37,409 nucleotides of DNA from a virus, in the IMG/VR virus record IMGVR_UViG_3300009370_002433, positions 1 through 37,409 of that record; one strand, 5' to 3'. The translations under genes and the position numbers were made by a program. Every line of letters starts with the position of its first letter. Position 1 is the stretch's first letter. Below, piece by piece: positions 13,000 to 33,556 of the stretch. The notes beneath the pieces were generated by a model, which worked only from the letters and a program-made list of their open reading frames with translations, did not search any database and was not told the origin of the DNA.

Positions 13000-13587
13000 A
13001 TGGAATTTAAAAACTGGTTTGGAAAACAAGATGCAGAAGTAGATGAATCTGAAATAGATCGTTTATATGATAAAGCACATATATCTGTAGAACTGGTGCG
13101 TGAATACAAACCAGAATTATTAAATAATATATCTACAATCGCAAATTTAGCCAGCGGAGCTTATGGGCTTTATAATTCAGGTGAAAATAAAAAAGTTCTA
13201 CCTACAAATGCTAAATTCATTTTTGATCAAAAACATATAGATCCAAATACCATCGACTTACTGCCTAAGTCTGTTATTAAACAACAGTTCCCTGAAATAG
13301 ATGAAAAACGAATTAAAGAAAGTGACACTATTCACGTCAACATAAATCGAATAGTTAAAGAATCAAAAACCGATTGGGATGCTGTTTTACAAATAGCAGC
13401 AACCATAATTCACGAATCCACACATGAAATGGAACGAGAAGAAACTGGCCAAACCAGCGAAGTAGGGCCACAAAGAGCCGAAAGAGAATTCATGAACTGG
13501 GCTAAACAAAATATGAAAAGAATTCAGGACAAATATCCTGAACTAAAAGGACAAGAAGATGGACTTCAAAAAATATCTGTTAATTAG
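13000..13587 (+). CDS. HExxH zincin-like protein with capsid-targeting-like N-terminus
   Basis: A 195-residue protein with the zinc-metalloprotease motif HESTH (residues 138-142) at the end of a helix (VLQIAATIIHESTHEME). Acidic residues near 160 could be the third ligand. Protease activity is therefore plausible, but the motif is short and the family is not recognised. The N-terminus MEFKNWFGKQ fits the F-x-x-[W/Y] motif shared by nearby proteins. It is first of four overlapping plus-strand genes. A possible late promoter lies 25 bp upstream, and the ribosome site AAGGA is good. Confidence 0.7.
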   Translation: MEFKNWFGKQDAEVDESEIDRLYDKAHISVELVREYKPELLNNISTIANLASGAYGLYNSGENKKVLPTNAKFIFDQKHIDPNTIDLLPKSVIKQQFPEIDEKRIKESDTIHVNINRIVKESKTDWDAVLQIAATIIHESTHEMEREETGQTSEVGPQRAEREFMNWAKQNMKRIQDKYPELKGQEDGLQKISVN

Positions 13588-14008
13588 CGAAAGCATAGAA
13601 ATTGGCAACCGAACTCTGCCTGAGAGCGAATTAAACTTTTCATTCGTGCGCAGCAGTGGCCCCGGTGGACAAAAAGTAAACAAGACGGCCTCAAAAGCTG
13701 TTCTATCTTGGCACGTCAAAAGTAGCGTTATATGGGGTAGCAACCAAGAAGCACTAAGCCGATTTTTATCAGCCAACAAAACAAGTAATAAAGGACACTT
13801 CCGTGCCGATTGCCAAGAACAAAGAAGCCAAGGGCAAAATAAAGAAGCATGCATCAATAAGCTAAAAAGAGCAATTGAAGAAGCATTAAAAGAACCAGTA
13901 GAAAGACAAACGACCGCCCCAACCACTAGCTCAGTTGAAAAAAGAATTGGAAAGAAAAAACAGCGGTCACAAAGAAAATCTGAACGAAGGCAAAAGTGGA
14001 ACTACTAA
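13559..14008 (+). CDS. ArfB/YaeJ-like ribosome-rescue peptidyl-tRNA hydrolase
   Basis: A 149-residue release-factor-domain protein. GPGGQKVNKTASKAVL (residues 34-49) holds the catalytic GGQ that hydrolyses peptidyl-tRNA. The basic C-terminus (SSVEKRIGKKKQRSQRKSER) matches the tail that ArfB inserts into the empty mRNA channel of stalled ribosomes. Aligned with E. coli ArfB from memory, the GGQ is ten residues further from the start. The extra N-terminal residues (MDFKKYLLISES) look like a capsid-targeting sequence, including I-S-E before Ser, a possible prohead-protease site. The start overlaps the upstream gene by 29 bp and has AAAGGA upstream. Confidence 0.88.
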   Translation: MDFKKYLLISESIEIGNRTLPESELNFSFVRSSGPGGQKVNKTASKAVLSWHVKSSVIWGSNQEALSRFLSANKTSNKGHFRADCQEQRSQGQNKEACINKLKRAIEEALKEPVERQTTAPTTSSVEKRIGKKKQRSQRKSERRQKWNY

Positions 14009-14283
14009 ACTTCAAGCAATACCTAGAAGCCGGATCAAACATAGGAGACACCGGAGGCGGTTCACACTATGACCAAGGACTGATATACACTGGCAGTGGA
14101 AGTTATATGCCGCCAGAAGAAGCCGCTCGAAGACAAGCACACAACGCAGGCATCCCTTTCCCAACACCTCTGACACCGGATGTTCAACAATTTTATCCTG
14201 AGCCAACTACAATAAATTTACAAAAAAAAAGAAAGCTCAAAGTCAAGAAAAGGAATAAAGAAAGAAAGTTGGGAAAATCATGA
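13996..14283 (+). CDS. Small protein with basic tail and capsid-targeting-like N-terminus
   Basis: A 95-residue protein beginning at a GTG with GAAGG upstream (MELLNFKQYLEAGSN). A Gly-rich middle is followed by a Pro-rich segment and a strongly basic tail rich in Lys and Arg, suited to binding nucleic acid. NFKQYLEAG resembles the motif of the neighbouring gene products. The start overlaps the ArfB-like gene by 13 bp and the end overlaps the next gene by ATGA, so the four genes are translationally coupled. A small DNA-associated head protein is a reasonable inference. Confidence 0.65.
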   Translation: MELLNFKQYLEAGSNIGDTGGGSHYDQGLIYTGSGSYMPPEEAARRQAHNAGIPFPTPLTPDVQQFYPEPTTINLQKKRKLKVKKRNKERKLGKS

Positions 14284-14834
14284 AAACATTTTTAGAATAT
14301 CATAAAGAACAAGAAATTAAAGAATTTTCCCAATGGTTAGAATTTCAAGGTTACGATCCGCAAACACTAGATCTAGAATCACTATTAGAAGCTGGTACGT
14401 GGGAAAAAGTTAAAAAGTGGGGCAAAGGAGCCGCTTTAGCTGGAGTTTTAGGAGCCGCTGCACTTGGAGGAATGACCCCAGGTGATTCAGATGCCCCATC
14501 AAAACAACCACAAACTCAATCTCAATCTCAAGAAGCTGAAGATGGGGTCACGGTTAAAGGGGACACTATCACAGTCCGCTTCTCCCATAAAAATATGAAC
14601 TACAGTCAAGCCAAAGCTCTTGACATGCTTGCTAAACATCTAAAAACAGATCAGATACCTGCTGGCCATACATCGGGCACAAAAAAAGGAGATGACGGAC
14701 TTTGGCATACTACAGTTGAATTATCAAAAAGCGGACAAGAAAATGCCGCAGCAGCACGTTCAGGAATGGGCGGTTCAAGTAACATCGTAAAACCATTACC
14801 CAGCGGACAAATTTCTCCTGACGCTGATCTATAA
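14280..14834 (+). CDS. Hypothetical protein with capsid-targeting-like N-terminus and hydrophobic segment
   Basis: A 184-residue protein. The N-terminus MKTFLEYHKEQEIKEFSQWL closely resembles the T4 internal-protein leader. A possible prohead-protease site L-L-E before Ala-Gly lies at residues 35-38. A Gly/Ala-rich hydrophobic stretch (GAALAGVLGAAALGG, about 48-62) follows, then a Gln/Ser linker and a compact C-terminal domain (about 85-150). Function unknown. It is last in the plus-strand cassette, and its stop overlaps the stop of the convergent beta-helix gene. Confidence 0.7.
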   Translation: MKTFLEYHKEQEIKEFSQWLEFQGYDPQTLDLESLLEAGTWEKVKKWGKGAALAGVLGAAALGGMTPGDSDAPSKQPQTQSQSQEAEDGVTVKGDTITVRFSHKNMNYSQAKALDMLAKHLKTDQIPAGHTSGTKKGDDGLWHTTVELSKSGQENAAAARSGMGGSSNIVKPLPSGQISPDADL

Positions 14835-16793: not shown

Positions 16794-16955
16794 TGCTAAT
16801 TACCTTTATTTTTTTTCTACTAATAATCATGTTGTCTCTCAAGTGCGTAACAATGTTAAGTGCTGATGTTCTAAACGCTAACGGAACAACCGTATGTGTT
16901 GTGCAACAAACTACAGCGACAATTAAAATATTCCTATATAGGCCCTAACCTATAA
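16794..16955 (-). promoter_or_regulatory. Intergenic leader of the beta-helix gene
   Basis: A gene-free stretch between the terminator palindrome and the beta-helix start, so the beta-helix gene probably has its own promoter here. I see no convincing TATAAATA or TTGACA/TATAAT pair on the minus strand. A T-run on the plus strand (16809-16817) gives an A-run just before the ribosome site. Confidence 0.3.
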
Positions 16956-16987
16956 AAATAGGCCCAATCTTAAGATTGGGCCTATTT
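16956..16987 (-). terminator. 32-bp perfect palindrome, terminator
   Basis: The half-site AAATAGGCCCAATCTT is followed by its exact reverse complement, giving a strong hairpin with a GGCCC core. It lies 34 bp after the stop of the 2H-phosphoesterase-like gene on the minus strand, and TTTTAT follows there. A further copy of TAGGCCC (on the minus strand GGGCCTA) lies nearby at 16939-16945. Confidence 0.75.
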
Positions 16988-17020
16988 GGATCGTGCTTCA
17001 AGTGAATCCGTGATTTATAC

Positions 17021-17386
17021 TCACTCAACGTGAGTTACAACGCCCTTAAGGGTAATAGGAGAAATAGATTTCCAATGTGTTAATTTATTACTAAAAAATG
17101 GTTTCCCGCCTGCCTCTCGATTGACGGCAACCGTTATATGCTTAATTTCGTTACTACTAGGGATTGGCAACTCCACTCCAGCGGCCATCACCAACTCATC
17201 CTGTGCCTGCGTATTGACCGTTAGCGGAGCCTCTTGACCCACCAATTCTGCGGCGGGGCCTTTATCAGGAGAACCCATATTAATTGTCATATGATGAGCA
17301 ACAACTTCCCAATTCTCCGGTATGTCCAGAGAATCAACAAGCTTCTTATGGGAACCTTCATCTAAAACAAGTGCCGTATAACTCAC
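17021..17386 (-). CDS. 2H phosphoesterase-like protein
   Basis: A 121-residue protein with two H-x-T-x motifs, HMTI (in VVAHHMTINMG, about residue 32) and HITV (in IKHITVAVN, about residue 83), the signature of 2H phosphoesterases. These hydrolyse 2',3'-cyclic phosphates or cyclic oligonucleotides. The short spacing and the strand patterns around both motifs fit a minimal domain. Two phage uses are known for this fold: RNA end repair, and Acb1-type destruction of CBASS defence signals. The sequence alone does not decide between them. The start overlaps the preceding gene by ATGA, and a strong terminator follows. Confidence 0.65.
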   Translation of the reverse strand: MSYTALVLDEGSHKKLVDSLDIPENWEVVAHHMTINMGSPDKGPAAELVGQEAPLTVNTQAQDELVMAAGVELPIPSSNEIKHITVAVNREAGGKPFFSNKLTHWKSISPITLKGVVTHVE

Positions 17387-17568
17387 TTCTTCTCCTTGAC
17401 AGTTTTCTTAACTACTGAATCAAACCGTCTCTTGTGTTCGTTCAACCCTACTCCAGACGTTACAAATTTACCTACAAACTGCCCTTTATCGTTCCTGATG
17501 TAAGAGGTTACTTGATACCCCTTCTGCGTCATCTCCGACTCAAGGCTCTTAAGCGAAACCTGCGACAT
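17383..17568 (-). CDS. Hypothetical protein, 61 aa
   Basis: Small basic protein with an alpha/beta pattern (GYQVTSYIRNDKGQFVGKF) and a Lys-rich end. Its stop overlaps the start of the 2H-phosphoesterase-like gene by ATGA, so they are translated together. No ribosome site of standard strength was identified before the ATG. Function unknown. Confidence 0.5.
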   Translation of the reverse strand: MSQVSLKSLESEMTQKGYQVTSYIRNDKGQFVGKFVTSGVGLNEHKRRFDSVVKKTVKEKK

Positions 17569-17628
17569 TTGTCCAATCTCATTAGTTTAAAATCCATAAT
17601 GTAAATTGTACTAATGAAATCTACAAAC

Positions 17629-18496: not shown

Positions 18497-18506
18497 CATA
18501 ATCTCC

Positions 18507-22692: not shown

Positions 22693-23934
22693 ATGTCTGA
22701 CTGGAATGAATTACACCATAAAGCAACTGTAGTTGATCTTCATACTCATCCTGCTCTTAAGTCAACCATATTCCACAGAAATTTGAGCGCCCCTCCAGGT
22801 AAATTTCTTCAACGATTCTTTAAGGAGAAATTTTGGCCCTTTAGCGGAAGAGTTACTTTTCCAAAAATGCAAGCTGGAGGCATGGATGTGCTTTTATCTA
22901 CAGCATATGTTTTAGAACAAGGTTGGATAGATGACATATCTTTAATTAAATGGTTATTTAAAATAGCGCCAGGTGTTCGTAAAAAATTAGTTGATCCTAC
23001 TTACTTTGATGCCACAAATATTATGCTAGATGAAATGGAAAAACAAATTGATCAATATAACAAAAATGCGAAAAAAGGAATGCGATTAGCTCGACTTGTG
23101 ACCTCTGGTGATAAATTGCAAGAAGGAGTGGATAGTGGCGACATGTGTGTTGTTCATTCCGTAGAAGGCGCACATAGCTTACAAGATACACTTGCCGGAA
23201 AAAAACCAGGCGTTAACGGGTGGCCGGATTCCCCCGAAGTTGAAACAGAAATATTGTCTAATTTAGAACATTTCTTCAATAAAGGGGTTGCTTATCTGAC
23301 TCTGGCACATTTTTATCCTAATCAATGCGCCAATCCGGTATTCCCATACCCAGAATATGGCGCCAAGCATTTGAAGTGGAGAAAAGTATTGGGGGAATGG
23401 GATGAAACCAAGGGATTGACCCCCATTGGAATTAAAGTAGTAGAAAAAATGCTTGATCTTGGAATGTTAATAGATGTTTCCCACTGTACGCTGGCAGCGA
23501 GAAAACAAATATATGACATAGTTGATTCTAACAATTATGAAAATTGCCTTCTTGCCACACACACAGGATGTTTTGAAGTAAATAGAATTACTTATAATAT
23601 TCAAGATTGGGAATTAAAATGGTTTGCTGATCATGGTTGCGTGGTAGGAATAATATTTATGAATTATTGGATATCCGCTGTGGATAGTGGATTGGGTTTA
23701 AAACACATAGAACAAACATTAAATCACATCATAAATATTTGCGGGGCAGAAACACCGGCTCTTGGGACAGATTTTGACGGATTTACTGACCCTCCAGATG
23801 AGATAGTTGACATGTCGGAATTACCCAGATTAACTTGTTATTTAAAGGGTTTAGATTATAGTGATGACATTGTTAAAAAGTTTTTAGGTGGAAATGCCTT
23901 GAGAATTTTGTTAGAAGGTTGGAAAAAGAAATAG
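22693..23934 (+). CDS. Membrane-dipeptidase-family (M19) metallopeptidase
   Basis: A 413-residue zinc dipeptidase of peptidase family M19, which cleaves dipeptides, including some with D-residues. Family signatures appear in order: VVDLHTHP (about residues 13-20), HSVEGAH (about 156-162), LTLAHFYPNQCAN (about 202-214), DVSHCT (about 260), LLATHTGCFEVNR (about 285-297) and LGTDFDG (about 357-363). The first metal site reads H-x-H instead of the usual H-x-D. No signal peptide, so it is probably cytoplasmic. GAGG lies before the ATG, after a long untranslated region. A peptidase gene of this kind is unexpected in a phage and may recycle peptides for amino acids. Confidence 0.88.
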   Translation: MSDWNELHHKATVVDLHTHPALKSTIFHRNLSAPPGKFLQRFFKEKFWPFSGRVTFPKMQAGGMDVLLSTAYVLEQGWIDDISLIKWLFKIAPGVRKKLVDPTYFDATNIMLDEMEKQIDQYNKNAKKGMRLARLVTSGDKLQEGVDSGDMCVVHSVEGAHSLQDTLAGKKPGVNGWPDSPEVETEILSNLEHFFNKGVAYLTLAHFYPNQCANPVFPYPEYGAKHLKWRKVLGEWDETKGLTPIGIKVVEKMLDLGMLIDVSHCTLAARKQIYDIVDSNNYENCLLATHTGCFEVNRITYNIQDWELKWFADHGCVVGIIFMNYWISAVDSGLGLKHIEQTLNHIINICGAETPALGTDFDGFTDPPDEIVDMSELPRLTCYLKGLDYSDDIVKKFLGGNALRILLEGWKKK

Positions 23935-23954
23935 ATAAGTTAAAGGAATAATAT

Positions 23955-24641
23955 ATGTGGCGCTTGGATGCAATTGTAGAACACAACATGACCCCGATTG
24001 AGGCTAAAGCAGTCAAAGTTGGGATTCTTTGGATGAAACTCTCTAAAGAAGTTTTTCCCGAATATAACCACATGAGGGTAAAAAGAGGAGATCCAAGAAA
24101 GTCAACATTGTTTCGCTATTGTTATAAGCTCATTAAAGAAACTAAAGGTCTTTTAGCTGACGATGAGTATAAACTTTATATAAAAGCACAGCTTGATGTA
24201 TTAAAGACAATTACAGATGGTCAAGTTAATGCGATGATAACTCCAAATGTTATTGTTGGAGAAAAAGCATGGAAACGATGGTTGGTTTGGAAAAAAAGAT
24301 ATGATAAGAAAGCATTGGCTTCAAATACTAAAGAAGCAGGCATAAAATCTCATAAAGATTCACATACAATAAATGAATTAGAGAAAACTAAAAAATTCTT
24401 CTTAAGAATATTTGAAAATGACCTTAAAAAAGAAGATATTATTGAAGCAATTGAAAATCGTACAATGACACGATGGCTGATACAGGGGAAAGTAAGTCCG
24501 TATTATGCTGTGTTATCTCCTCTGATGAAGAAATACTTCAAAGACGAATCTAAGGTCAACTTTAACATCCCGTTTTATTCTGGGGGCATTACGGGGCCTG
24601 TAGAGGTAGAATACAGGTCTTTGTTTAGTTGCGAATTTTAA
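23955..24641 (+). CDS. Hypothetical protein, 228 aa
   Basis: A basic, largely helical protein with an AAAGGAATA ribosome site, 20 bp after the dipeptidase gene and probably co-transcribed with it. Notable segments are YNHMRVKRGDPRKSTLFRYC (about residues 37-56) and VGEKAWKRWLVWKKRYDKK (about 99-117). The density of Lys, Arg and Trp suggests nucleic-acid binding. No domain recognised. Confidence 0.7.
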   Translation: MWRLDAIVEHNMTPIEAKAVKVGILWMKLSKEVFPEYNHMRVKRGDPRKSTLFRYCYKLIKETKGLLADDEYKLYIKAQLDVLKTITDGQVNAMITPNVIVGEKAWKRWLVWKKRYDKKALASNTKEAGIKSHKDSHTINELEKTKKFFLRIFENDLKKEDIIEAIENRTMTRWLIQGKVSPYYAVLSPLMKKYFKDESKVNFNIPFYSGGITGPVEVEYRSLFSCEF

Positions 24642-24744
24642 TTTTTATATAATCTATCTTAGGAATTAACATCATTCCTCCGGGGCACCCTGGACAACAT
24701 GTTTTAATGTCGTCTCCAAGAGGCTTCCCACAACAACTCGCCAC
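24625..24744 (-). CDS. Very small Cys-rich protein, 39 aa
   Basis: Reads MASCCGKPLGDDIKTCCPGC then a short basic tail. Two CC pairs and a CPGC suggest a small zinc knuckle. The GTG start shares one base with the TAG stop of the upstream gene (TAGTG), which suggests coupled translation, but no separate ribosome site exists. The end overlaps the convergent gene at 24641 by 17 bp. Small size makes this tentative. Confidence 0.4.
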   Translation of the reverse strand: MASCCGKPLGDDIKTCCPGCPGGMMLIPKIDYIKIKIRN

Positions 24745-25004
24745 TAATTTACTTTTTTTTTTGAAGCGTGCATTTCTTTCATTGCTTTACTTCTTTTTAA
24801 TGACTTTTGTCGATGTCCATTTTTATTGAGAATTTCATATACATGTTGTTTACTGATGCCTAATTTTTGTGCAATTTCCAAAGGCCTCAGCCCATCTTCG
24901 TGCAAACTGAAAATATCGGCAACGAACTTGCCGTGGCTGAGTTTGTTTTTACAAACCCAGCAGGTATCTTCATTTATCATTTCATTTAATTGGAAAAAGT
25001 TCAT
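24744..25004 (-). CDS. Small helix-turn-helix protein with a CxxC
   Basis: An 86-residue protein starting MNFFQLNEMINED, close to the shared N-terminal motif. It then has CWVC, and a helix-turn-helix (about residues 41-63) with RPLEIAQKLGISKQHVYEIL, like resolvase- or Trp-repressor-type DNA readers. The C-terminus is Lys-rich. The ATG at 25004 is preferred over a TTG four codons upstream. It follows the 257-aa gene by 8 bp on the same strand. It could be a regulator; if the N-terminus is a packaging signal, it would enter with the DNA. Confidence 0.65.
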   Translation of the reverse strand: MNFFQLNEMINEDTCWVCKNKLSHGKFVADIFSLHEDGLRPLEIAQKLGISKQHVYEILNKNGHRQKSLKRSKAMKEMHASKKKVN

Positions 25005-25012
25005 TTTAGTTC

Positions 25013-25786
25013 TCAATAATATTTCAAAATTGTTGCCATAGTTTCTATTATTTCGTCATTACTTTGAGTTGAAACAAATTTCATAATGCAATCTGCGGGC
25101 ATGATTTCCCACTTATTAGATGATCCCACTCCTGCTTCAACATTTGTATTAACAACTTTAAGTATTCCAGTGTCTTCTTCAAAAACTATATCAGTTTGAT
25201 TTTGTATCACTTTTTTGTGGTCTGGTGCTTCTACTCCATGGCCTCTAACCGAAAAATGAATTACATAATGGTTGTCTTTTAATTTGTGTATTCCTTCAAA
25301 GATAAATATTGGTCTTGCTGTTGACCTTAGTCGATTTGCCATATCGACAATAAGCTTTTCCATATTCTCCCATTTATCCTTAGGAGTATCTAATTTTTTT
25401 TCATTAATCTTTAATACTTCTGACATAAGTTCGTTGGCAACATAAACTTCAAATCCTCCATATCCTTCTCTGTTTATTTGATATACTTTCTTTGACAGCC
25501 ATTGTGGTGTACCTTGTAGATCATGAGTTAAACGTTCGATAAACACGTTGATTCCGGTGCCTAATCTTATTTTTATAGATCCTTCTCCTTCCCCCCATTG
25601 AACAACATCTACAAATTTCAAAGAAGGAACTTTTTCTCCCAATTTCTGCTCCGACAGAGATTTGCACATAGTTTCAACATTGAATTTATGTGTTGGCGTC
25701 TTTGCTTTAGGTTCTTTTCGTTGAACTTTTGGCTTAGAGTCAAACCCAAATATATCTTTCCATTCCATAAAGTCTTTATATCTCAT
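25013..25786 (-). CDS. Hypothetical protein with shared N-terminal motif, 257 aa
   Basis: Begins MRYKDFMEWKDIFGFD, with Phe/Trp spacing like the capsid-targeting-type N-termini nearby, followed by a basic Pro-rich linker (about residues 17-33). The body is an alpha/beta protein with alternating strands (GSIKIRLGTGINVFIERL, ARPIFIFEGIHKL, HYVIHFSVRGHGVE) and an acidic C-terminal part. No family recognised. No clear ribosome site; a GATAAATA lies only 6 bp before the ATG, too close for a normal leader. Confidence 0.7.
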   Translation of the reverse strand: MRYKDFMEWKDIFGFDSKPKVQRKEPKAKTPTHKFNVETMCKSLSEQKLGEKVPSLKFVDVVQWGEGEGSIKIRLGTGINVFIERLTHDLQGTPQWLSKKVYQINREGYGGFEVYVANELMSEVLKINEKKLDTPKDKWENMEKLIVDMANRLRSTARPIFIFEGIHKLKDNHYVIHFSVRGHGVEAPDHKKVIQNQTDIVFEEDTGILKVVNTNVEAGVGSSNKWEIMPADCIMKFVSTQSNDEIIETMATILKYY

Positions 25787-25820
25787 AACATTATTTATCG
25801 TTTAAATCGTATATATTTTT

Positions 25821-26102
25821 ATGAAATCATTTGAATCTTGGTTAGAAAACAAATTGTGGCTGGAAGATAAAAAGGTGGTAAAAGACACCATTCTTGGATT
25901 ATTGGACTTTTTAGGAGATTCAGAAAAAGACAGACTTAATTTTCATGTGAACAATATTGATACTGATACTAAAAGAAAAATTAAGAATTTAGGTATTTTA
26001 ACCAATATCAAGGATGATGACCCTGTTAAATATAAAGATATTATTGAAATACTTGACAAGGGGAGACAAACGGTATCTGAATTAATAGACAAAATATCAT
26101 GA
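25821..26102 (+). CDS. Small protein with capsid-targeting-like N-terminus, 93 aa
   Basis: Starts MKSFESWLENKLWLEDKK, a clear member of the shared N-terminal pattern. The rest is helical and charged with no motif. No Shine-Dalgarno site; the ATG follows TATATATTTTT directly. The stop overlaps the next ATG (ATGA), so the arginine-type hydrolase downstream is translated from the same message. It diverges from the 257-aa gene. Confidence 0.65.
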   Translation: MKSFESWLENKLWLEDKKVVKDTILGLLDFLGDSEKDRLNFHVNNIDTDTKRKIKNLGILTNIKDDDPVKYKDIIEILDKGRQTVSELIDKIS

Positions 26103-26887
26103 CGGAATTTCTCCTGTGTAAACCAACTTTTTATGGTGTCAAGTATGAGATAAACCCATGGATGGACATTAAAAAGGCACCTAGTTGGGCTAAAGCAAAT
26201 AGTCAATGGAGTAAGTTAAAAACAGTCATTTCTAAATGTAAAGCCAAGATACATTATTTAAATCCTTCTCCCGACCTCCCTGATATGGTATTCACAGCAA
26301 ACGCAGGGATATTAAAGGGTAATACTTTTTTGCCTTCTAATTTTAGGCATAAAGAAAGACAAGGAGAAAAAGATCACTTCAAAAGGTGGTTTAAAAGCGA
26401 AGGGTATCAAGTTTATGAAGTGCACCCAGAGATCAATTGTGAGGGGGCTGGAGATGCTTTATTTGAAGGAAAAACTCTTTTTGCAGGTTATGGCATAAGA
26501 ACCGACAAAGAGGCTTATGGCACGATATGTAAGGCCCTAGAGGTAGATGACTTAATTTTTTGTCAACTAGTTGATGATTACTTTTATCATTTAGACACTT
26601 GTTTTTGCCCTCTAGGTAATGGACATGCAATTGTTTATCCTAAAGCTTTTAGTTCGATTTCTTTAGAAAGAATGTCCAAAGAAATTGAATTGCATGAAGT
26701 TCCTATGAAAGATGCAAAGAAATTCGCTTGTAACGCTGTTGTGATAGATGACAAAGTTATAATTCCATCAGGTTGTGATAAAACTAGAAAGATACTTGAA
26801 GATTTAGGGATGATTGTGTTTGATGTAAATATGGATCAATTTATTCTTGCAGGCGGTGCTTGCAAGTGTCTTACTATTAAAATCTAA
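26099..26887 (+). CDS. Amidinotransferase/arginine-dihydrolase-family enzyme
   Basis: A 262-residue protein of the guanidino-group-modifying superfamily (COG1834 type). Visible are YEINPWMDIKKAP (about residues 18-30), DMVFTANAG (about 61-69), a GAGDAL acidic turn (about 119), YHLDTCFCPLGNGHA with the catalytic-type His (about 161-175), and GGACKC near the end holding the likely nucleophilic Cys. Relatives include dimethylarginine dimethylaminohydrolase, CtlX-like hydrolases and cyanobacterial arginine dihydrolase (ArgZ/AgrE). Choosing among these needs alignment. It is coupled to the 93-aa gene and convergent with a proline dehydrogenase gene (11-bp overlap). Confidence 0.82.
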   Translation: MTEFLLCKPTFYGVKYEINPWMDIKKAPSWAKANSQWSKLKTVISKCKAKIHYLNPSPDLPDMVFTANAGILKGNTFLPSNFRHKERQGEKDHFKRWFKSEGYQVYEVHPEINCEGAGDALFEGKTLFAGYGIRTDKEAYGTICKALEVDDLIFCQLVDDYFYHLDTCFCPLGNGHAIVYPKAFSSISLERMSKEIELHEVPMKDAKKFACNAVVIDDKVIIPSGCDKTRKILEDLGMIVFDVNMDQFILAGGACKCLTIKI

Positions 26888-27698
26888 ATAAGTTTTTTAA
26901 AACTTTTATTGCCAATAATGGATTTTCTTTAAATCTCCTTAATGAATATTCATACCAACTATTGCCAAAAGGAACATAAACTGATGTTTTGTGCTTGTAT
27001 TTGACTTCGTCTATGAATGGGATCACATGTTTTACTCCAAATAAAAATTGATATTCTACATCATGACCAAACCACCTTTTGGCCAATCTTAGATCGTGTG
27101 TGGCCACCGCAACTTGGCAATTGTTTTTTATTAATTCTTTAACTATCCCTGTAAAATTTGTAAGTACATTTGTTCCGCTTAAAGAGAAGTTCCTATTTTC
27201 TTTATATGCTCCTTTGCAGACTCGCACATGTATGTTTTTAAGTCTGCCTGCGTCAGCCAAACTTCTTTTTAAATTGGCCTGTAAAACACAACCAACTGGG
27301 TATTTTTCATTTATTTCTTTAATTAAAACCAGTGTTCTTTCTGTGTATTTTGAATCTTCCATATCCACAGTGAGTTGCTTTTTTTCTTTATCGCACGCAG
27401 CCGCAATCTCAAGCAAGTTATCTCTACACTTCCAATACCCTTTAAGCATTCCAATGTTTGTTAGTTTGACGGATAGAGATGATTTTGTATTCTTTGATAA
27501 GTCTACAACTTCTAAATATTTTTCCAAATTGTCTCTTGCTTCTTTATCTGATTCCCCTAGTAGATCATACACTCCGTAGATGCTTCTCTCATTTAAATGT
27601 TTTACAACGTCCTCTGCATCTTTAAACGAATCTCCTGCGATGTATTGTTCCGCTATTTTTTTAACAAGTTTTTTAGGAACGAGTTTAAGTATGTTCAT
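26877..27698 (-). CDS. Proline dehydrogenase
   Basis: A 273-residue FAD-dependent enzyme that oxidises L-proline to pyrroline-5-carboxylate. The TIM-barrel signatures are in order: SVKLTNIG (about residues 75-82), LTVDMEDSKYTERTL (about 108-122), CVLQANLKRSLADA (about 137-150), VRVCKGAYKE (about 157-166), VAVATHDLRLAKR (about 194-206), EYQFLFGV (about 214) and YSLRRFKENP near the end, where paired Arg residues bind the carboxylate. Length is close to single-domain bacterial enzymes (about 300). The ATG overlaps the upstream stop (ATGA). No pyrroline-5-carboxylate dehydrogenase is seen in the window. Confidence 0.88.
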   Translation of the reverse strand: MNILKLVPKKLVKKIAEQYIAGDSFKDAEDVVKHLNERSIYGVYDLLGESDKEARDNLEKYLEVVDLSKNTKSSLSVKLTNIGMLKGYWKCRDNLLEIAAACDKEKKQLTVDMEDSKYTERTLVLIKEINEKYPVGCVLQANLKRSLADAGRLKNIHVRVCKGAYKENRNFSLSGTNVLTNFTGIVKELIKNNCQVAVATHDLRLAKRWFGHDVEYQFLFGVKHVIPFIDEVKYKHKTSVYVPFGNSWYEYSLRRFKENPLLAIKVLKNLFRF

Positions 27699-28138
27699 AG
27701 ATTTGCTGGGTCGAACGAATTGGGATTTGTTTCTGACCCTCCGAAATAGTGAATGCTTACGGCAATAGTTTCGATGCCGAGATCTTTTGCTGCTCGCATT
27801 CGATGATTTCCTTCATTGATTTTAGTTTCTCCATTATGAAAAACATTCACCTGAATGGGGTTTTTGTAGAGAACTTTAGGATCGTTTTTCAAGACTTCTC
27901 TCCAGTGTTTATATTTTTCTGGTATTACATTTTTATGTTCATCATTTTGACCGGGTAGTCTTTCAACATGTTTGATTGGTATAATGACAGTGTTGTATTT
28001 GGCTGTGATACTTGTTTTGTTATGCTTAAGCCATTGTGGGTCATTTGGGTTATCGGACCAGAATCCTAGTTCATCACGCTTCGCTGCTCTTTCAGGCGTT
28101 ATTTCTTTTTTTCCAAACCATTGTGAAAACGTTTTCAT
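27695..28138 (-). CDS. ParB/Srx-domain protein with capsid-targeting-like N-terminus
   Basis: A 147-residue protein. KINEGNHRMRAAKDLGIETI (about residues 104-123) is the conserved box of the ParB/sulfiredoxin fold (usually D-G-x-H-R), and VIIPIKHVERLPG opens the domain. ParB-like domains can bind or hydrolyse CTP or act as nucleases; which applies here is unknown. The N-terminus MKTFSQWFGKKE matches the shared motif. AGGAAA lies before the ATG. The stop overlaps the proline dehydrogenase start by ATGA. Confidence 0.75.
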   Translation of the reverse strand: MKTFSQWFGKKEITPERAAKRDELGFWSDNPNDPQWLKHNKTSITAKYNTVIIPIKHVERLPGQNDEHKNVIPEKYKHWREVLKNDPKVLYKNPIQVNVFHNGETKINEGNHRMRAAKDLGIETIAVSIHYFGGSETNPNSFDPANL

Positions 28139-28180
28139 GATGATTTCCTATTAAAATTCAACATATCAATATATATCTTT

Positions 28181-28747
28181 ATGGAATTAATAATCGTTAG
28201 ACACGGAGAAAGTGAGTATAACACTGACATTTCCGAGAGTTTAGATAGCAGTCTGACTACTGAAGGTATTTTACAAGTAAAAAAGACAGCCGAGTACTTA
28301 AAAAAAATTGATTTAAGTGAGTTTGAAGGAATAACGTCGCCTTATTTAAGAACTCTTCAGACTGCTAAAATTATTCAGGGGGAAACGGACATTCCGTTTC
28401 GAGTAGACAATGGCCCTGCTGAATTGACAATTTACTATTATGACATTGATTTTTTAGATGTTCCTAAGCGGGACTTTGAGTTTGATTGGCCGTCTGATTG
28501 GGATGGAAGATTTGCTGCCAAAGAAAATTTAGACGACTTTCTTTGTAGAATAGAATCGTTTTTATCTGGCTTAGACAAGAATAAAAAATATTTGATTGTT
28601 TCACACGGATCTCCAGTACATACTATGTCTAATTTAATGCAAGGCATTAAAGAAGTCCCAGAGTGGACAGATTCGATAGCTAATTCTAGTATAACTTGGT
28701 TAGAAAATGATAATTTGAAATGTCTTTCTAAGGTGGTTTATGATTAA
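28181..28747 (+). CDS. Histidine phosphatase (phosphoglycerate-mutase-like)
   Basis: A 188-residue phosphatase of the histidine-phosphatase superfamily. IIVRHGESEYN (about residues 4-14) carries the catalytic His and Arg, SPYLRTLQTAKII (about 58-70) a second Arg, and LIVSHGSPVHTM (about 146-157) the second His. Substrates range from sugar phosphates to phosphoproteins and cannot be told here. Its N-terminus starts directly at the first strand, with no targeting motif. No Shine-Dalgarno site before the ATG. The end overlaps the kinase gene by 8 bp. Confidence 0.88.
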   Translation: MELIIVRHGESEYNTDISESLDSSLTTEGILQVKKTAEYLKKIDLSEFEGITSPYLRTLQTAKIIQGETDIPFRVDNGPAELTIYYYDIDFLDVPKRDFEFDWPSDWDGRFAAKENLDDFLCRIESFLSGLDKNKKYLIVSHGSPVHTMSNLMQGIKEVPEWTDSIANSSITWLENDNLKCLSKVVYD

Positions 28748-29276
28748 TTTTTCAAAATGGATAGAATCTAAAGAATCTAAGATTCTTTACATAATGCGTG
28801 GGGTTTCTGGATCTGGCAAGAGCACGTTGGCCAATAGCCTTGCTGACCCTTCTGGCATTTTCTCTACGGATGATTTTTTTGGGCATGGAGATGAATATAT
28901 TAAGAATTTTAATCCATCTAAACTGGGAAAAGCTCATCAATGGAACCAAGATAGAGTTATTGAAGCCATGTCAAAAGGAATCAATCCTATAGTAGTTGAC
29001 AATACTCACACTCAAGCTTGGGAAGCAAAACCATATGTAAAAGCCGCTCTTAAAAACGGTTATGAAGTCATTATAAAAGAGCCAAATTCTCCTATGTGGA
29101 AAGTGGTTCTAGATACTATAGAAAAGGATGGAGATCTTGATTCGGTGGCTGCGAAACTTTCTAGTTTGAATAAGCATGGTGTTCCAAAAGAGGCAATTGA
29201 AAGAATGCTTCGAAGATATGAGCCGAATATTACTGTGGACAAGATATTAGATTCTAAGTCTCCTTTTGATAAATAA
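28740..29276 (+). CDS. P-loop polynucleotide-kinase-like protein (AAA_33/N4BP2 type)
   Basis: A 178-residue kinase. Walker A is GVSGSGKST (about residues 21-29), followed by a IFSTDDFF segment with acidic residues (about 39-46) and INPIVVDNTHTQAWEAKPY (about 81-99), the pattern of 5'-polynucleotide-kinase-like N4BP2 and T4 Pnk kinase domains. The first 14 residues (MINFSKWIESKESK) precede the first strand and match the shared N-terminal motif. AAGGTGG lies upstream. No phosphatase domain is fused, but a separate histidine phosphatase gene overlaps it. Repair of broken RNA ends is a possible role. Confidence 0.82.
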   Translation: MINFSKWIESKESKILYIMRGVSGSGKSTLANSLADPSGIFSTDDFFGHGDEYIKNFNPSKLGKAHQWNQDRVIEAMSKGINPIVVDNTHTQAWEAKPYVKAALKNGYEVIIKEPNSPMWKVVLDTIEKDGDLDSVAAKLSSLNKHGVPKEAIERMLRRYEPNITVDKILDSKSPFDK

Positions 29277-29281
29277 ACTGA

Positions 29282-30688
29282 TTAAAAATCAATTTTTTCT
29301 TTTGTGGTTACATCATGACCTTCTTTGGTCAAGATTCTTATTCTCTTTCTAGAATGCTCAAGAAGATAATCATTTATATTAAAAATAAAATCATAGTATT
29401 GTAATATCTCTTTATCGTCTGCCGTTCTTAATCCACGACCCATTCTTTGTATTATTTGATGGTCTGCCTGTCCTCCTGCGGCGTTGATTAGGTTGTGTGT
29501 GAAAACATTGATCCCAGAGTTAAAGATGCCTTGCGTTGCTATGGCTATAACATCATCTTTAGATTTTTGAAGTTGTTTGATTACTTCTTTTCTTGTTTCA
29601 ATGTCATCTTTACCTTGCACCCACAATGAATTCGGCAACAAACCTTGCAAAGCATCTCCGTGAGCAAGTCGATCAACCAATATTAAAGTTCTTCCTTTCA
29701 AGCTGGTGGCTAATCGTGAAACAATTTCATGGAAGTGCCACGATTCGGCAATTCCATGAGTGACAGCATCAAGATAAATGTCATAGGGCAGTTGAGGTTC
29801 ATCAATAGGATAAAAAGTTGCTTTAGATGGTGCCAATATGTCTCTATCTTGTAAACTTTTTGTGGTAAGGACGCCAGTTTCAGAGGCTTTGGTTTTTAGT
29901 ACTGGCCCAAAGAATCCTTTGACTGAATATTTTTGAGTTTTATCTTTCCCTCCAAATTTGAATGGTGTGGCACTCAAGGCGATCCGCACGCCAGCAGATT
30001 TAAGCTTTTTATATATTGTCTTTGGTCTTTTGCTCATGTTTTCATGAATTTCATCCACTATAACCACTTGTATTTTTGGGAGCAATTTTTCTATTTTATG
30101 CAACGATTGTACGGTTGCACAGGTGATCATGTTTGGTTCTTTATATTTGTCATATAATCTTCCTACATCTTTAAATCCCCATTTTTTAATTTCTTCATAG
30201 TTTTGAGATACAAGGCTTTTCCTGTTGGCTAATACTAAAGTTGGGGTGTTAGGCGGGATTGCCTTCAAAGTTCCAACCATTATGAATGTTTTGCCTGAAG
30301 ATGTTGGGGAATAAATTATCCCTCTTTTATTTTTTATTATTTGATTTATGAAATCTACTTGGTAATCATGCAAAGTTATATTGTTGCCCAAAAAATCTTC
30401 GTCAATGTTTTTAACTTTAAATTCAATTTCTTCTCGGCAATCTTCTATTTCAAATTCTGATTCTAATATTTTTAATGCGGTTGTTACTTCTGGTAGCAAT
30501 CCGGTAAGAAATTTACCAGACAACTTATTGAAAAATTCAGTATATCCATCCCATAATTTTTGTTTATACAAACGACTGTGGAAATAGTTTTTTTCTCTAA
30601 ACCTTAATGAACTCCAAAGTTTTGTTTTTAGTTCATTATCTTCAGAGATTAACCAAGAATAATCATTTTTTATTTTAAGCAAATTCAT
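29282..30688 (-). CDS. UvsW-like SF2 helicase
   Basis: A 468-residue helicase. The N-terminal 100 residues (ending before LHDYQVDFIN, a Q-motif-like start) fit the small UvsW N-terminal domain. Walker A is SPTSSGKT (about residues 134-141), then VIVDEIHE (DEIH box, about 212), SATPF (about 238) and QRMGRGLRT (motif VI, about 420). In T4, UvsW branch-migrates recombination and origin intermediates. The gene ends 5 bp from the convergent kinase gene. No Shine-Dalgarno site; a TATAAATA overlaps the ATG, too close to serve as its promoter. Confidence 0.88.
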   Translation of the reverse strand: MNLLKIKNDYSWLISEDNELKTKLWSSLRFREKNYFHSRLYKQKLWDGYTEFFNKLSGKFLTGLLPEVTTALKILESEFEIEDCREEIEFKVKNIDEDFLGNNITLHDYQVDFINQIIKNKRGIIYSPTSSGKTFIMVGTLKAIPPNTPTLVLANRKSLVSQNYEEIKKWGFKDVGRLYDKYKEPNMITCATVQSLHKIEKLLPKIQVVIVDEIHENMSKRPKTIYKKLKSAGVRIALSATPFKFGGKDKTQKYSVKGFFGPVLKTKASETGVLTTKSLQDRDILAPSKATFYPIDEPQLPYDIYLDAVTHGIAESWHFHEIVSRLATSLKGRTLILVDRLAHGDALQGLLPNSLWVQGKDDIETRKEVIKQLQKSKDDVIAIATQGIFNSGINVFTHNLINAAGGQADHQIIQRMGRGLRTADDKEILQYYDFIFNINDYLLEHSRKRIRILTKEGHDVTTKEKIDF

Positions 30689-30706
30689 ATTTATATTGTA
30701 TCAAAA

Positions 30707-31375
30707 TCAAGATACCCTGTCAGGGTAGTCGGTAATAATTCCGTCTACCCCCATTCTTGTAAAATGTTCAATTTCTTCAACATCATTAACTGTAAAGACA
30801 AAAATTTTCAACCCTATGTCACGCAATTGGATGAACACATCTTTTTTAAGGCAATTTTTTTCTAAGCCAATTGAATAAAAACTTAATTTATTCAACTCTT
30901 TGGCTTGCTTCGCTGTCACTTCCATGGCCAAGTATCCTAATCTTACGTCAGGAAGAAATGAATTAAATGTTTTAAGTTCATTTATTTTAAAACTTGAGAC
31001 AAGAATATTATCTAAATTCCATTTATTTGACTTAAGCAATTCCGCCGTGGCCGCTCCTGCGCCTTCAGAAACCAATTCAATGTTGACTTGGCATTGTTGA
31101 TTTATATAATCAAGTGTCTTGGATAGTGTTGGTATTGTTTCGTTTTTCCCCGCATCTAATGATTTAATTTCTTCTATAGTTTTAAACTCAACAAGGCCTT
31201 CACCGTTAGTGGTTCGCTTCAAATCATCATCGTGAATTATCACCAACTCCCCAGTTTTACATAATCGAGCATCAAATTCAATCATGTCCACTTGTAGTTC
31301 AAGTGCTTTTTTAAATGCCAATATAGTATTTTCTGGTTCATACCCACTGGCTCCTCGATGTGCTACTTTAAACAT
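30707..31375 (-). CDS. Glycerophosphodiester phosphodiesterase
   Basis: A 222-residue TIM-barrel enzyme that splits glycerophosphodiesters to glycerol-3-phosphate and alcohol. VAHRGASGYEPENT (about residues 4-17), IEFDARLCKTGELVIIHDDDLKRTTNG (split by family into E-x-D and HD motifs, about 37-63) and the terminal GVDGIITDYPD are family hallmarks. Length is normal for a short bacterial form. No signal peptide, so it acts in the cytoplasm. GGAGGG precedes the ATG at 10 bp. It could supply phosphate or glycerol phosphate from host lipids. Confidence 0.9.
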   Translation of the reverse strand: MFKVAHRGASGYEPENTILAFKKALELQVDMIEFDARLCKTGELVIIHDDDLKRTTNGEGLVEFKTIEEIKSLDAGKNETIPTLSKTLDYINQQCQVNIELVSEGAGAATAELLKSNKWNLDNILVSSFKINELKTFNSFLPDVRLGYLAMEVTAKQAKELNKLSFYSIGLEKNCLKKDVFIQLRDIGLKIFVFTVNDVEEIEHFTRMGVDGIITDYPDRVS

Positions 31376-31412
31376 ATATTATTTACCCTCCATTTAAAGA
31401 ATACATCGATCT

Positions 31413-32441
31413 ATGAAAATTAAATTTAATTTGTTAAAAAAATTTGTTTCACATGTTTTTGTCAAATTAGGAGTTTCTTTAGAAGATAGTTTAATTGTAT
31501 CGGACGTGATAGTCAAAGCTGATATGTATGGTTTTAATACCCATGGGGTGAGTCGATTAAGGTATTATATACAACGAATATATGACGGAATTCAAAATTC
31601 CTCTACGTTATTTCAAATAGTTAATTCCAATCGTGCCGTTGCTGTTGTTGATGGGAATAATGGCATGGGACAAGTTGTTGGATATAATTCAATGAATATG
31701 GCAATTGAAAGGGCGTCTGAATATGGAGTGGGATGTGTAGTTGCCAAAAATTCCTCTCATTTCGGGATATGCGGGTATTATTCTTTGATGGCTGTTGAAG
31801 AGGACATGATAGGTGTCGTTTTCACTAATGCTCGGCCTGCTGTTGCTGCTTTTGGTGGGGATAAATCTATTCTAGGAACTAACCCGTTTTCTATTGGGAT
31901 GCCTTCTAACACACACCCTTTTCTTATTGATTGTTCCACTTCTATTGTTCAGCGAGGAGATATTGAAGTATGGGAAAGAGAGGGAAGACCTGTTTCCAAG
32001 GACGTGGCAATTCCAGAGACTGAGAATCCGACTGATTTGTTAAAATTATTGAACGTTGGACAAGCCGCTTTAAAAACCATAGGAGGGCACAAGGGATATG
32101 GATTGTCTGTGGCCATAGAATTATTTTGCTCCGCACTCAGCAATGGGTCTGCGTTGGGTGAATTACGAGGTCATTATGAGGGGTTGAAAGGAACGTCATA
32201 TGATATGGGTCACTTTTTTTTAGTCATAAACCCTTCACATTTTATAGAAATTGAATTGTTTAGGAACAAGGTTTCTGAAGTTAGAGACGAATTGAAGAAA
32301 ACAGGAAATTGTGTATTGGTTCCGGGCGACATTGAGTTTGAAAATAAATCAGATAAAATTGAAATCAATTCCGACCTATATAATGAGATTAAAAATATAG
32401 CATTACAATTTGATTATAATTTAGAGGTTGATGAGGTATGA
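31413..32441 (+). CDS. Ldh2/Mdh2-family NAD(P)-dependent oxidoreductase
   Basis: A 342-residue protein of the malate/L-lactate dehydrogenase-2 family, which is unrelated to ordinary LDH. Signatures are ADMYGFNTHGVSRL (about residues 35-48), VVDGNNGMGQVV (about 77-88), VAKNSSHFGICGYYS (about 110-124), LGTNPFSIGMP (about 155-165) and GGHKGYGLSVAIEL (about 225-238). Known members reduce 2-keto acids, sulfolactate, ureidoglycolate or the cyclic imine pyrroline-2-carboxylate, which gives proline. Substrate unknown. The start lacks a Shine-Dalgarno site; the end overlaps the next ATG (ATGA). Confidence 0.85.
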   Translation: MKIKFNLLKKFVSHVFVKLGVSLEDSLIVSDVIVKADMYGFNTHGVSRLRYYIQRIYDGIQNSSTLFQIVNSNRAVAVVDGNNGMGQVVGYNSMNMAIERASEYGVGCVVAKNSSHFGICGYYSLMAVEEDMIGVVFTNARPAVAAFGGDKSILGTNPFSIGMPSNTHPFLIDCSTSIVQRGDIEVWEREGRPVSKDVAIPETENPTDLLKLLNVGQAALKTIGGHKGYGLSVAIELFCSALSNGSALGELRGHYEGLKGTSYDMGHFFLVINPSHFIEIELFRNKVSEVRDELKKTGNCVLVPGDIEFENKSDKIEINSDLYNEIKNIALQFDYNLEVDEV

Positions 32442-32950
32442 AATTATCCGCCAGAGTTCCAGAATCCGTTAAAAATGGTTTTTTTTGCACAAGCGTAATT
32501 GTTGTTACTGGATCTCATGAGTTTATCTTAGATTTCGTACAAGGCTTTGAAACTCCTGCCGTGATATGCGCTCGTGTTATAATCCCACATGCTGTAATGG
32601 GTTCATTTTCTGCGGCACTTAAACAGAACTTAGAAGATTATGAAACTGCGCATGGCCCATTGCCCGTCGATAAAAAAGTAGAACCTTTGAAAGTAGAAAC
32701 CGTAAAAGAATCCACCTCTCCTACGCCTCAAGAAGTTTATGATGATCTGTCTATTACAGATGAAACTATAATGGGATTCTATGCGAATGGAATTATGATG
32801 CGATACACCGATGCAGAGTTTAAGTTTGACTTTTTATCTAATTTTGTGCCGAGAGCGACAGTCAATTGCAGAATTTTTATGAGCGCTGTTCAAACAGCTA
32901 GAATGTCTGATACCATCTCTAGCACTTATGCTGCCTTTTTAAAGTCTTAA
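32438..32950 (+). CDS. Tandem DUF3467-like protein
   Basis: A 170-residue protein with two copies of a DUF3467-like module. Copy one (about residues 13-73) runs SVIVVTGSHEFILDFVQGFE to SAALKQNLEDYETAHG; copy two (about 107-168) runs FYANGIMMRYTDAEFKFDF to the final helix. Both have the F-x-F/L-D-F strand and the ARV- or CRI-type strand. A flexible Lys/Pro/Thr linker joins them. DUF3467 has no established function and is usually single. GAGGT lies before the ATG, which overlaps the upstream stop. Confidence 0.7.
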   Translation: MKLSARVPESVKNGFFCTSVIVVTGSHEFILDFVQGFETPAVICARVIIPHAVMGSFSAALKQNLEDYETAHGPLPVDKKVEPLKVETVKESTSPTPQEVYDDLSITDETIMGFYANGIMMRYTDAEFKFDFLSNFVPRATVNCRIFMSAVQTARMSDTISSTYAAFLKS

Positions 32951-32983
32951 ACTCCCGCAGCAGATTTAGCGGCTGGAGCCACT

Positions 32984-33556
32984 CTATATTCGTTGACCTG
33001 ACTCCGCTGCCTTGGCATCTAACTTTGCCGACCCTGCTCTGGCTCTGGCAGCGGCGGCTGGATCTGGCTTTCCACGCATGGCTGTACTGGTGGTTTTAGG
33101 TGCTCTGGGTTGCGTTTTCTCCCAATCCCCAACACCCTTGTCACTCAGCGGGAATCCTCCTGGAACGGTTTTCGCAGCGTGAAGTCTGGCACGGTATGCA
33201 TTGAGTTTTTTTATAATAGGAATGAATTCTCTCGATAGTTCATCACCACCTAATTTTCCAGCGTCGGTTAAATTGGAAATTGCATTCTTAATCATTGGGC
33301 CAGGATCTTTTCCTTTTCCCATCGCTACACTTAAGGCTCTTTTCCCACCTTCTATAGCTCCTCGTCCAACACCACTGACGGCGGTATCTAAAGCACGTTT
33401 TCCAACGGCAACGCCAGCGTCTACAACGCCTTTAGCGGCTCTTCCAGCCAAGTTTCCTAAAACCCCTTCTTCCATAACACCTTGAGATTCTAGGTATTCT
33501 AATATTTGTACGGCTTCTTCAATGTTTCTATTAATGCAATATTTTTTAAAGGTCAT
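32984..33556 (-). CDS. Ala/Gly-rich probable internal head protein with targeting-like N-terminus
   Basis: A 190-residue basic protein starting MTFKKYCINRNIEEAVQILE. I-E-E before Ala at residues 12-15 is a possible prohead-protease cut. The body is rich in Ala, Gly and Lys (VVDAGVAVGKRALDTAVSG) with amphipathic helix, and has a disordered Pro/Ala C-terminus. AGGAG lies before the ATG. A perfect late-promoter-like TATAAATA lies 26 bp upstream. All this fits a small DNA-associated head protein, though no homologue is recognised. Confidence 0.65.
   Translation of the reverse strand: MTFKKYCINRNIEEAVQILEYLESQGVMEEGVLGNLAGRAAKGVVDAGVAVGKRALDTAVSGVGRGAIEGGKRALSVAMGKGKDPGPMIKNAISNLTDAGKLGGDELSREFIPIIKKLNAYRARLHAAKTVPGGFPLSDKGVGDWEKTQPRAPKTTSTAMRGKPDPAAAARARAGSAKLDAKAAESGQRI

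Follow-up and report, generated by a model that had tools for sequence, protein, structure and literature searches.

Why do about ten otherwise unrelated proteins of one virus open with a similar run of residues? The question is raised by a 37,409-base virus record (IMGVR_UViG_3300009370_002433; this whole stretch is called the window), which carries T4-type replication genes and many metabolic genes. A first-pass annotation had listed ten proteins starting between 13000 and 33556 with a common N-terminus (here the tag), likened it to the leader of T4 internal head proteins, and proposed a family of enzymes packaged in the head and injected into the host. The common N-terminus was recovered for nine of the ten. 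We put the probability that it targets proteins to the capsid in the manner of the T4 internal proteins (the head-targeting part) at roughly 80%, as judged from sequence, and strongly infer that the tagged proteins would be packaged into the head.

A shared N-terminus on nine window proteins

N-termini were scored with a log-odds matrix refined from a simple pattern (Met, one to four residues, F/Y, two residues, F/W/Y, hydrophobic), using a threshold of 7 bits and an expectation taken from shuffles. A second, far-trained matrix was trained on genomes G014, G019 and G022 alone and never saw the window. Genes were called by our own script, and proteins below 40 or 45 residues were excluded from counts; several homologues first scored as untagged proved to have a miscalled start. 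Open frames were present at all ten listed starts, given here with group-matrix scores in bits.

13000..13587, plus strand: tagged HExxH protein, 195 aa, tag MEFKNWF (residues 1–7), score 12.8
13559..14008, plus strand: tagged ribosome-rescue factor ArfB, 149 aa, tag MDFKKYLLISE, score 12.5
13996..14283, plus strand: tagged 95-aa protein, GTG start, tag MELLNFKQYLE, score 16.7
14280..14834, plus strand: tagged 184-aa protein, tag MKTFLEY, L/I-x-E near residue 15, score 13.6
24744..25004, minus strand: helix-turn-helix (HTH) protein, tag not confirmed, score 0.8 (2.2 with the far-trained matrix)
25013..25786, minus strand: tagged 257-aa protein, tag MRYKDFMEW, family conserved across the group, score 9.6
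25821..26102, plus strand: tagged 93-aa protein, tag MKSFESWL, score 15.8
27695..28138, minus strand: tagged ParB-like protein, 147 aa, tag MKTFSQWF, score 18.8 (PHROG ParB-like, 1.6e-5)
28740..29276, plus strand: tagged P-loop kinase, 178 aa, tag MINFSKWI, score 18.5 (AAA_33, 47.4 bits, cut-off 27)
32984..33556, minus strand: tagged 190-aa protein, tag MTFKKYC, L/I-x-E near residue 14, score 13.0

The nine tagged proteins scored 9.1–16.9 bits with the far-trained matrix, and the HTH protein was rejected as a member on its two low scores. Nine of the 45 called window genes exceeded 7 bits with this matrix, as did nine with the group matrix, against a shuffle mean of 0.23 and, for the far-trained matrix, a maximum of 2. 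Eight of these were on the earlier list. The other, 16793 (8.3 and 7.4 bits), has no aromatic residue at the anchor position and was read as chance. The protein at 25786 was called from a downstream start and so falls outside the nine of 45; it makes the ninth true tagged protein. All remaining called genes scored below zero, including UvsX, gp41, DNA polymerase, the helicases and a DDAH-like protein. The same was true of the M19, proline dehydrogenase, GDPD, Ldh2-like and histidine phosphatase enzymes, which the first-pass annotation had rightly described as lacking the N-terminus.

The tag across the group and in control phages

Near relatives of the window are records of 85, 95, 37 and 22 kb with 92–93% UvsX identity; middle relatives stand at 50–55% and include 187 and 341 kb records; far relatives, at about 45% in gp41, include records of 223, 299 and 88 kb. 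The 595 kb GenBank record LR756511 was assigned to the group on two grounds: 84.5% identity between its gp21 and the G006 gp21, and its being the sole record of the 'phages' collection in which one conserved tagged protein has a homologue. Very large phages therefore belong to this group. The window itself is a genome fragment: no gp21, gp23 or portal was found in it by searches that included S77. The profile scan was accordingly run on the relatives' genomes, and the tag was found group-wide.

The simple pattern occurred in seven of the 45 window genes (0.4 in shuffles) and exceeded the shuffle mean in every relative except G009 (0/26), although the counts for G001 and G007 were not above the shuffle maximum. 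Matrix scores above 7 bits (shuffle expectation in brackets) were obtained for 31/275 genes in G005 (1.2), 42/578 in the 341 kb G006 (1.9), 34/351 in G014 (1.4), 22/108 in G019 (0.7), 27/294 in G022 (0.7), 8/117 in G001 (0.2), 5/70 in G008 (0.6) and 3/47 in G007 (0.1), and for none of 26 in G009. LR756511, which is outside the training set, has 51 tagged genes among 1089 (3.8 in shuffles). A further 59 loci of at least 12 kb, none from training genomes, contributed 43 of 659 genes after removal of 27 genes common to the earlier genomes; a single shuffle of all 686 genes gave 4.

Residues enriched in T4 numbering are K(2), T/N/S(3), F(4), K(5), Q/E(6), W/F/Y(7), L(8), E(9) and E(12), positions 4 and 7 belonging to the search pattern itself. 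The consensus is K-[TNS]-F-K-[QE]-[WFY]-L-E. Clustered on the residues after the first 14, the 248 tagged proteins fell into 168 clusters, a count that includes G003 proteins, which are near-duplicates of window and G001 proteins. On sequence comparison, the tag is a portable module that stays while its neighbourhood changes.

With the full matrix, no gene was tagged in phiKZ (0/363), lambda (0/62) or RaK2 (0/542), and two were in each of S-PM2 (2/228) and HTVC008M (2/196). The far-trained matrix gave 0/62 in lambda and 7/381 in KVP40. T4 holds a small tagged set. As control phages have few or no tagged genes, the tag expansion belongs to this huge-phage group. Separately, eight of 381 KVP40 genes (NC_005083) exceeded 7 bits (0.9 in shuffles), and this T4 relative may own a tagged set. 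Virion proteomics of RaK2 was considered as a test of packaging and dropped, RaK2 having no tagged proteins.

Likeness to T4 internal head proteins

For T4, the passages of PMC9026906 drawn on here state that the first ten residues of IPIII are enough for packaging, that it is chiefly residues 4 and 7 that govern capsid targeting and residues 8 and 10 that govern processing, and that gp21 cleaves after L/I-x-E. A matrix trained without T4 placed ipI, ipIII and ipII at ranks 2, 4 and 9 of 264 T4 genes; the probability of three random T4 genes ranking so high is 2.8e-5. The far-trained matrix placed them at ranks 2, 5 and 15. The top T4 gene was gp61.1 (54 aa, MKTFKEFIKED; NC_000866 18966-19130, locus L250), annotated as hypothetical. 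Its N-terminus makes it a candidate further T4 internal head protein, though its mature part is acidic (−4.5 net charge per 100 aa).

The first-pass annotation had named a gp21-like prohead protease as a gene to look for, and one is present in some relatives: the gp21 family was found in four of 30 records (G006, G014, G019 and G022) and in LR756511. These five are also the carriers of gp23 among the eight group records searched besides the window. Four of the eight have a T4-type portal; the search found none in G019. Between portal and gp21, on the strand opposite gp21, lies a small gene in G006, G022, G014 and LR756511, and G019 has two small opposite-strand genes just before its gp21 block. 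This neighbour gene is tagged by score in G006, G022, G014 and G019. In LR756511 the homologue opens with MTQKVADKMKRFLDYYRFRE; its true start may be a Met further along. The G014 portal gene (59602-63459, locus L156 into L157) has about 1285 codons and two separate stretches that match the portal family, pointing to an intein or large insert.

Candidate cleavage sites were counted behind 231 tags, G003 proteins being left out. L/I-x-E was found behind 88 (shuffle mean 49.9, maximum 70), L/I-N-E behind 23 (mean 3.2, maximum 11) and [LIMFV]-x-E behind 120 (maximum 105), and replacement of Glu by D, Q, K or N gave counts within shuffles. An alternative x-L-E site was rejected, [FWY]LE occurring twice in 231 against 2.6 in shuffles. 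In the window, three of the nine tagged proteins have L/I-x-E close behind the tag, and these are the three (13559, 14280 and 33556) for which such a site had been claimed. The gp23 of the group has [FMI]-N-E aligned near L-T-E of T4 gp23, which we take to be the T4 cut site. At the sequence level the tag has the tested features of a T4-type capsid-targeting sequence, with the exception of a close cut site, which not all tags have.

Late-promoter-like boxes in front of tagged genes

A late box pattern, TA[TAG]A[TA]A, was chosen after inspection of LR756511 and then applied to other genomes. In LR756511 a box ended 3–9 nt before the start of 30 of 51 tagged genes and of 57 of 1038 others (p=2e-22). 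Corresponding counts for tagged and other genes were 22/42 and 37/536 in G006, 16/31 and 15/244 in G005, 11/27 and 10/267 in G022, 9/34 and 15/317 in G014, 4/8 and 9/109 in G001, and 22/43 and 36/616 in the 59 further loci. At 10–20 nt there was a weak excess in LR756511 only (p=0.01). At 21–40 nt an excess was seen in the window (4/9 vs 4/36, p=0.04), G003, G006 and LR756511. Untagged genes in LR756511 and G006 carry the box too, and several of them look structural. The enrichment in most relatives would fit late expression of the tagged cargo.

The distance from box to ATG peaks at 4–6 nt, and 90 of 104 tagged genes with a near box have no Shine-Dalgarno match by our own score. In the part of PMC1524935 used here, the T4 late promoter box TATAAATA spans −13 to −6 and the late box of Aeh1 is CTAAATA. 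With the T4 spacing, a box ending 4–6 nt before the ATG would place the transcript start at the start codon, and many cargo genes are thus probably on leaderless late mRNAs. The following boxes were located in the window.

12969..12974, plus strand: late-promoter-like box CATAAATA, 25 nt before 13000
25792..25797, minus strand: late box TAAATA, separated from the ATG of 25786 by exactly 5 nt
25810..25815, plus strand: late box TATATA, separated from the ATG of 25821 by exactly 5 nt
28170..28175, strand not assigned: TATATA box, upstream of both 28138 (minus strand, 31 nt) and 28181 (plus strand, 5 nt)
33583..33590, minus strand: late box TATAAATA, 26 nt before 33556

The first of these probably serves a four-gene tagged operon (13000-14834); no box stands in front of the tagged genes inside it, 13559, 13996 and 14280. 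The divergent tagged genes 25786 and 25821 share a 34-base gap with one box per ATG. The 5-nt distance of the 28170..28175 box to 28181 was read off the intergenic sequence; it places this TATATA box before the ATG of the untagged histidine phosphatase gene 28181-28747, which heads a unit ending in the tagged kinase gene at 28740.

In divergent tagged pairs elsewhere (G005:34235/34766, G005:87230/87688, G006:149761/150114, G019:53023/53527 and LR756511:397976/398794), the two genes of a pair share one nearly palindromic, TATATA-rich stretch that looks like a single element for both directions. A second upstream motif tended towards untagged genes, not significantly so: AATTGTACC in G006 (59/536 untagged vs 1/42 tagged, p=0.11) and AGCTGTACT in LR756511 (70/1038 vs 0/51, p=0.07). 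It is perhaps an early or middle promoter.

What is tagged

The mature parts of tagged proteins are basic, with a net charge of +1.78 per 100 aa vs −1.07 in other proteins matched for length. In all eight genomes the medians differ in the same direction, in the window not significantly so (p=0.16). Mature T4 ipI-ipIII lie between +1.2 and +5.6.

Pfam scans of 39 tagged proteins gave a match at E up to 0.01 for 15 and none for 24; the first ten were picked as enzyme-looking, so that 15 of 39 is not a random sample. No MuF or portal match appeared among the 39, and no search was aimed at such fusions. Two window proteins exceeded curated cut-offs, ArfB and the P-loop kinase. Among the relatives' tagged proteins, two further kinases, a HAD protein of RNA-repair type, a C39 peptidase, DUF5661, a UvrD helicase, a GNAT acetyltransferase and a 2H phosphoesterase did so. 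ART-PolyVal, DnaJ, alpha/beta hydrolase and Acb1 matches were below cut-off. The 2H phosphoesterase is tagged in G014 and none of its three homologues has a clear tag; the G014 tag may be fortuitous or newly acquired. A PADLOC search of ten proteins gave matches to the AAA part of a CARF model (window kinase), to GajB helicases (tagged UvrD protein) and, weakly, to Cas3 HD (tagged HD protein). These matches say no more than the domain. Some tagged proteins exceed 1000 aa, and several are Pro/Gly-rich or Lys-rich. Among homologues of T4 proteins in the huge phages, one of 80 was tagged vs 232 of 2974 among all genes, and this one, the G019 terminase, may be chance.

The family of the HExxH protein (13000) has H138, E139, H142 and E161 invariant over nine aligned sequences; nine of 12 loci were used, two near-copies and one truncated locus being omitted. 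The tag was present in eight of the nine, in residues 1–13 that are otherwise variable: homologues begin MEFKNWF-, MRFKLWLE-, MKSFIQWLE- (TTG start) or MNFKHWFIE- and then share a VDE..ID core. In the exception, L284, the motif is in frame and no usual start codon stands directly at it. A zinc metallopeptidase would be expected to have, besides HExxH, a downstream ligand and a known fold; the window protein had Pfam matches below cut-off only, and its model (pLDDT 62) matched nothing in the PDB at E up to 0.001.

The window ArfB scored 111.7 bits against NCBIfam ArfB (NF006718, cut-off 100) and contains GPGGQKVNK of the GGQ release-factor domain. Homology to ArfB/YaeJ (4v95) starts at residue 19, which corresponds to ArfB residue 9; cleavage at the predicted site after ISE (residue 11) would give a nearly native N-terminus.

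All 11 loci found for the 25786 family carry the tag. This protein had only a weak family match, and its model (pLDDT 80) found RnlA as best PDB match (E 0.0099, TM 0.18), which is not meaningful. Homologues of the window kinase in relatives begin directly at the P-loop domain in three of four cases; the fourth (G022) has a short N-terminus scoring 1.6 bits. A PDB sequence search with the kinase gave no match. The proteins at 13996, 14280, 25821 and 33556 had no family match worth naming. The proposed 'family of enzymes' does not extend to all tagged proteins; the recognisable ones are the ArfB, kinase, HExxH and ParB-like proteins.

Interpretation and rival explanations

Capsid targeting would act at the peptide level, through a pair of aromatics with a spacing of three and the aliphatic residue behind them, at about residues 4, 7 and 8. 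Synthesised late in infection, tagged proteins would use the tag to bind the growing prohead core and would be enclosed before DNA packaging; part of them would be cut by gp21 after L/I-x-E just behind the tag. The head contents may then exit together with the DNA and take effect immediately in the new host, like T4 Alt and IPI. In this huge-phage group, the tag would have spread onto tens of unrelated proteins per genome. The packaging reading of the first-pass annotation is supported for nine of its ten proteins; it fails for 25004, and most tagged proteins lack a close canonical cut site. The profile scan, the gp21-like protease of some relatives and the lack of the tag on cytoplasmic enzymes of the window speak for it. 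It is strengthened by the blind recovery of the T4 internal proteins, the late box, the basic mature parts and the tagged genes within the head-gene cluster.

By analogy with T4, injection of most tagged enzymes into the host seems slightly favoured. We also lean, by a little, towards a fuller picture in which heads are pre-loaded with about 20–50 proteins chosen by a portable 8–10-residue tag, made from leaderless late promoters (divergent back-to-back pairs included) and acting before any phage gene is read. Their arsenal would comprise a ribosome-rescue factor, kinases, a peptidase, and ADP-ribosyltransferase-like and 2H phosphoesterase (anti-CBASS-like) enzymes.

Several observations weigh against capsid targeting. 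From the shuffle sum, about 11 of the 248 tagged proteins are expected by chance, and the genomes are related, so per-genome counts are not independent. T7 has two of 47 genes above threshold with the full matrix and one of 47 with the far-trained matrix, which also gives 2/363 in phiKZ (1.1 in shuffles). RaK2 has a T4-type head and yet no tagged genes; a T4-type head therefore does not predict the tag. Searches found no gp21, gp23 or portal in the window, G001, G003 or G005, presumably because these records are fragments. L/I-x-E was absent from the stretch examined behind 143 of 231 tags, and once sites with Asn before Glu are removed, [LIMFV]-x-E falls to 97 (mean 76.7), within the shuffle maximum of 101. 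At 3–9 nt the box showed no significant enrichment in the window as called (1/9 vs 4/36), in G003 (4/16 vs 9/100, p=0.08) or in G019 (6/22 vs 18/86, p=0.6). Finally, the top T4 match, gp61.1, is to our knowledge not a known virion protein.

Four other explanations were considered. Short hydrophobic N-termini may look alike by chance and have been picked out by a reader; the T7 hits and the probably fortuitous 16793 fit this idea. It is scarcely credible given nine of 45 window genes found by a matrix blind to the window, and an aromatic anchor at 199 of 1846 N-termini vs 189 of 7075 internal Met positions. Alternatively, leaderless late mRNAs could need a particular codon context after the ATG, the amino acids being a by-product. 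The strong link between the tag and a box 4–6 nt before the ATG would agree with this, as would a moderate lean of tag codons to A/T-ending ones (AAA 0.71 vs 0.50 in the genomes, GAA 0.84 vs 0.69). The 57 untagged genes with the same box in LR756511, the tagged operon genes without one, and the whole range of synonymous codons used at tag positions led us to reject an RNA-level cause and to read the tag as a peptide. With the aromatic anchor also varying between residues 3, 4, 5 and 6, a cause of this kind is very improbable.

Two further possibilities keep the tag as a targeting peptide. It could be a short amphipathic helix for another site, such as the tail, the baseplate or a membrane-bound assembly centre. 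Boxes before structural-looking untagged genes, and tagged proteins of over 1000 aa, large for passage through a portal, are compatible with such a destination. We consider it improbable, as the residue pattern equals that of the T4 head tag and recovers the T4 internal proteins blind, prohead-protease sites are enriched behind it, mature parts are basic, and small tagged genes occur between portal and gp21 (G006, G022 and G014) or just before the gp21 block (G019). The tag could also load the prohead with cargo that is mostly scaffold-like or structural and stays in the capsid; this overlaps with capsid targeting as set out above and denies its last step only. The Pro/Gly-rich or Lys-rich proteins, the tagged genes within the head cluster and the 24 of 39 proteins with no Pfam match would suit a retained cargo. 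The recognisable domains are mostly those of enzymes (ArfB, kinases, C39 peptidase, HAD, UvrD helicase, GNAT, 2H phosphoesterase and ART-like), and retention is possible but doubtful.

Relation to known systems

As described for T4 IPI, IPII and IPIII in the source passages used, the tag is N-terminal, about ten residues long, with aromatic residues at about 4 and 7 and an aliphatic one at 8, and it precedes unrelated basic proteins and, in part of the cases, a gp21-type L/I-x-E site. T4 has three such internal proteins, whereas genomes of this group have tens of tagged genes. The group also differs in preferring Trp at the second aromatic position, in Glu at +5 and +8 from the first, in a more variable or missing cut site and in the many genes with a late box at the ATG. 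Boxes resembling those of the T4 and Aeh1 late promoters described in the part of PMC1524935 used precede tagged and some other genes; in the group, the box ends 4–6 nt before the ATG.

Head-packaged ADP-ribosyltransferases (ARTs) and polyvalent proteins are enzymes for which injection is predicted, and ART and 2H phosphoesterase types are among them, as here; in the portions of PMC9503650 consulted, packaging is deduced from MuF, portal or similar fusions and from neighbourhood, not from a portable N-terminal tag. The phiKZ inner-body proteins (excerpts of PMC13282480) and, in the source text available, the SPN3US ejection proteins likewise combine a large protein cargo in the head with a prohead protease and ejection into the host. 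Unlike the group, phiKZ lacks the tag, its far-trained count standing close to the shuffle value.

The idea that a targeting sequence may let T4-like phages take various proteins into capsids is already in print, proposed in the review section cited above (PMC9026906). We found no description of the tag in huge phages in open-access papers; new here are its scale, the enzyme cargo and the link to late boxes at the start codon. Phage-injected proteins can seldom be read from sequence alone. If the tag reading is true, a 10-residue pattern and a late box would list the likely injected proteins of an uncultured huge-phage group; as most scanned tagged proteins match no known family, such a list would be a source of candidate host-takeover and anti-defence proteins. 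The T4 tag, known from three small proteins, would then be an expandable sorting code.

Other features of the window

Metabolic genes unusual for a phage lie at 22693-32441 and encode an M19 dipeptidase, a DDAH-like protein, proline dehydrogenase, GDPD and an Ldh2-type malate/lactate dehydrogenase, all untagged. At 3-2276, on the minus strand, an open frame of 758 residues or more, very rich in Cys and with repeats of CxxC-type stretches, extends past the window edge.

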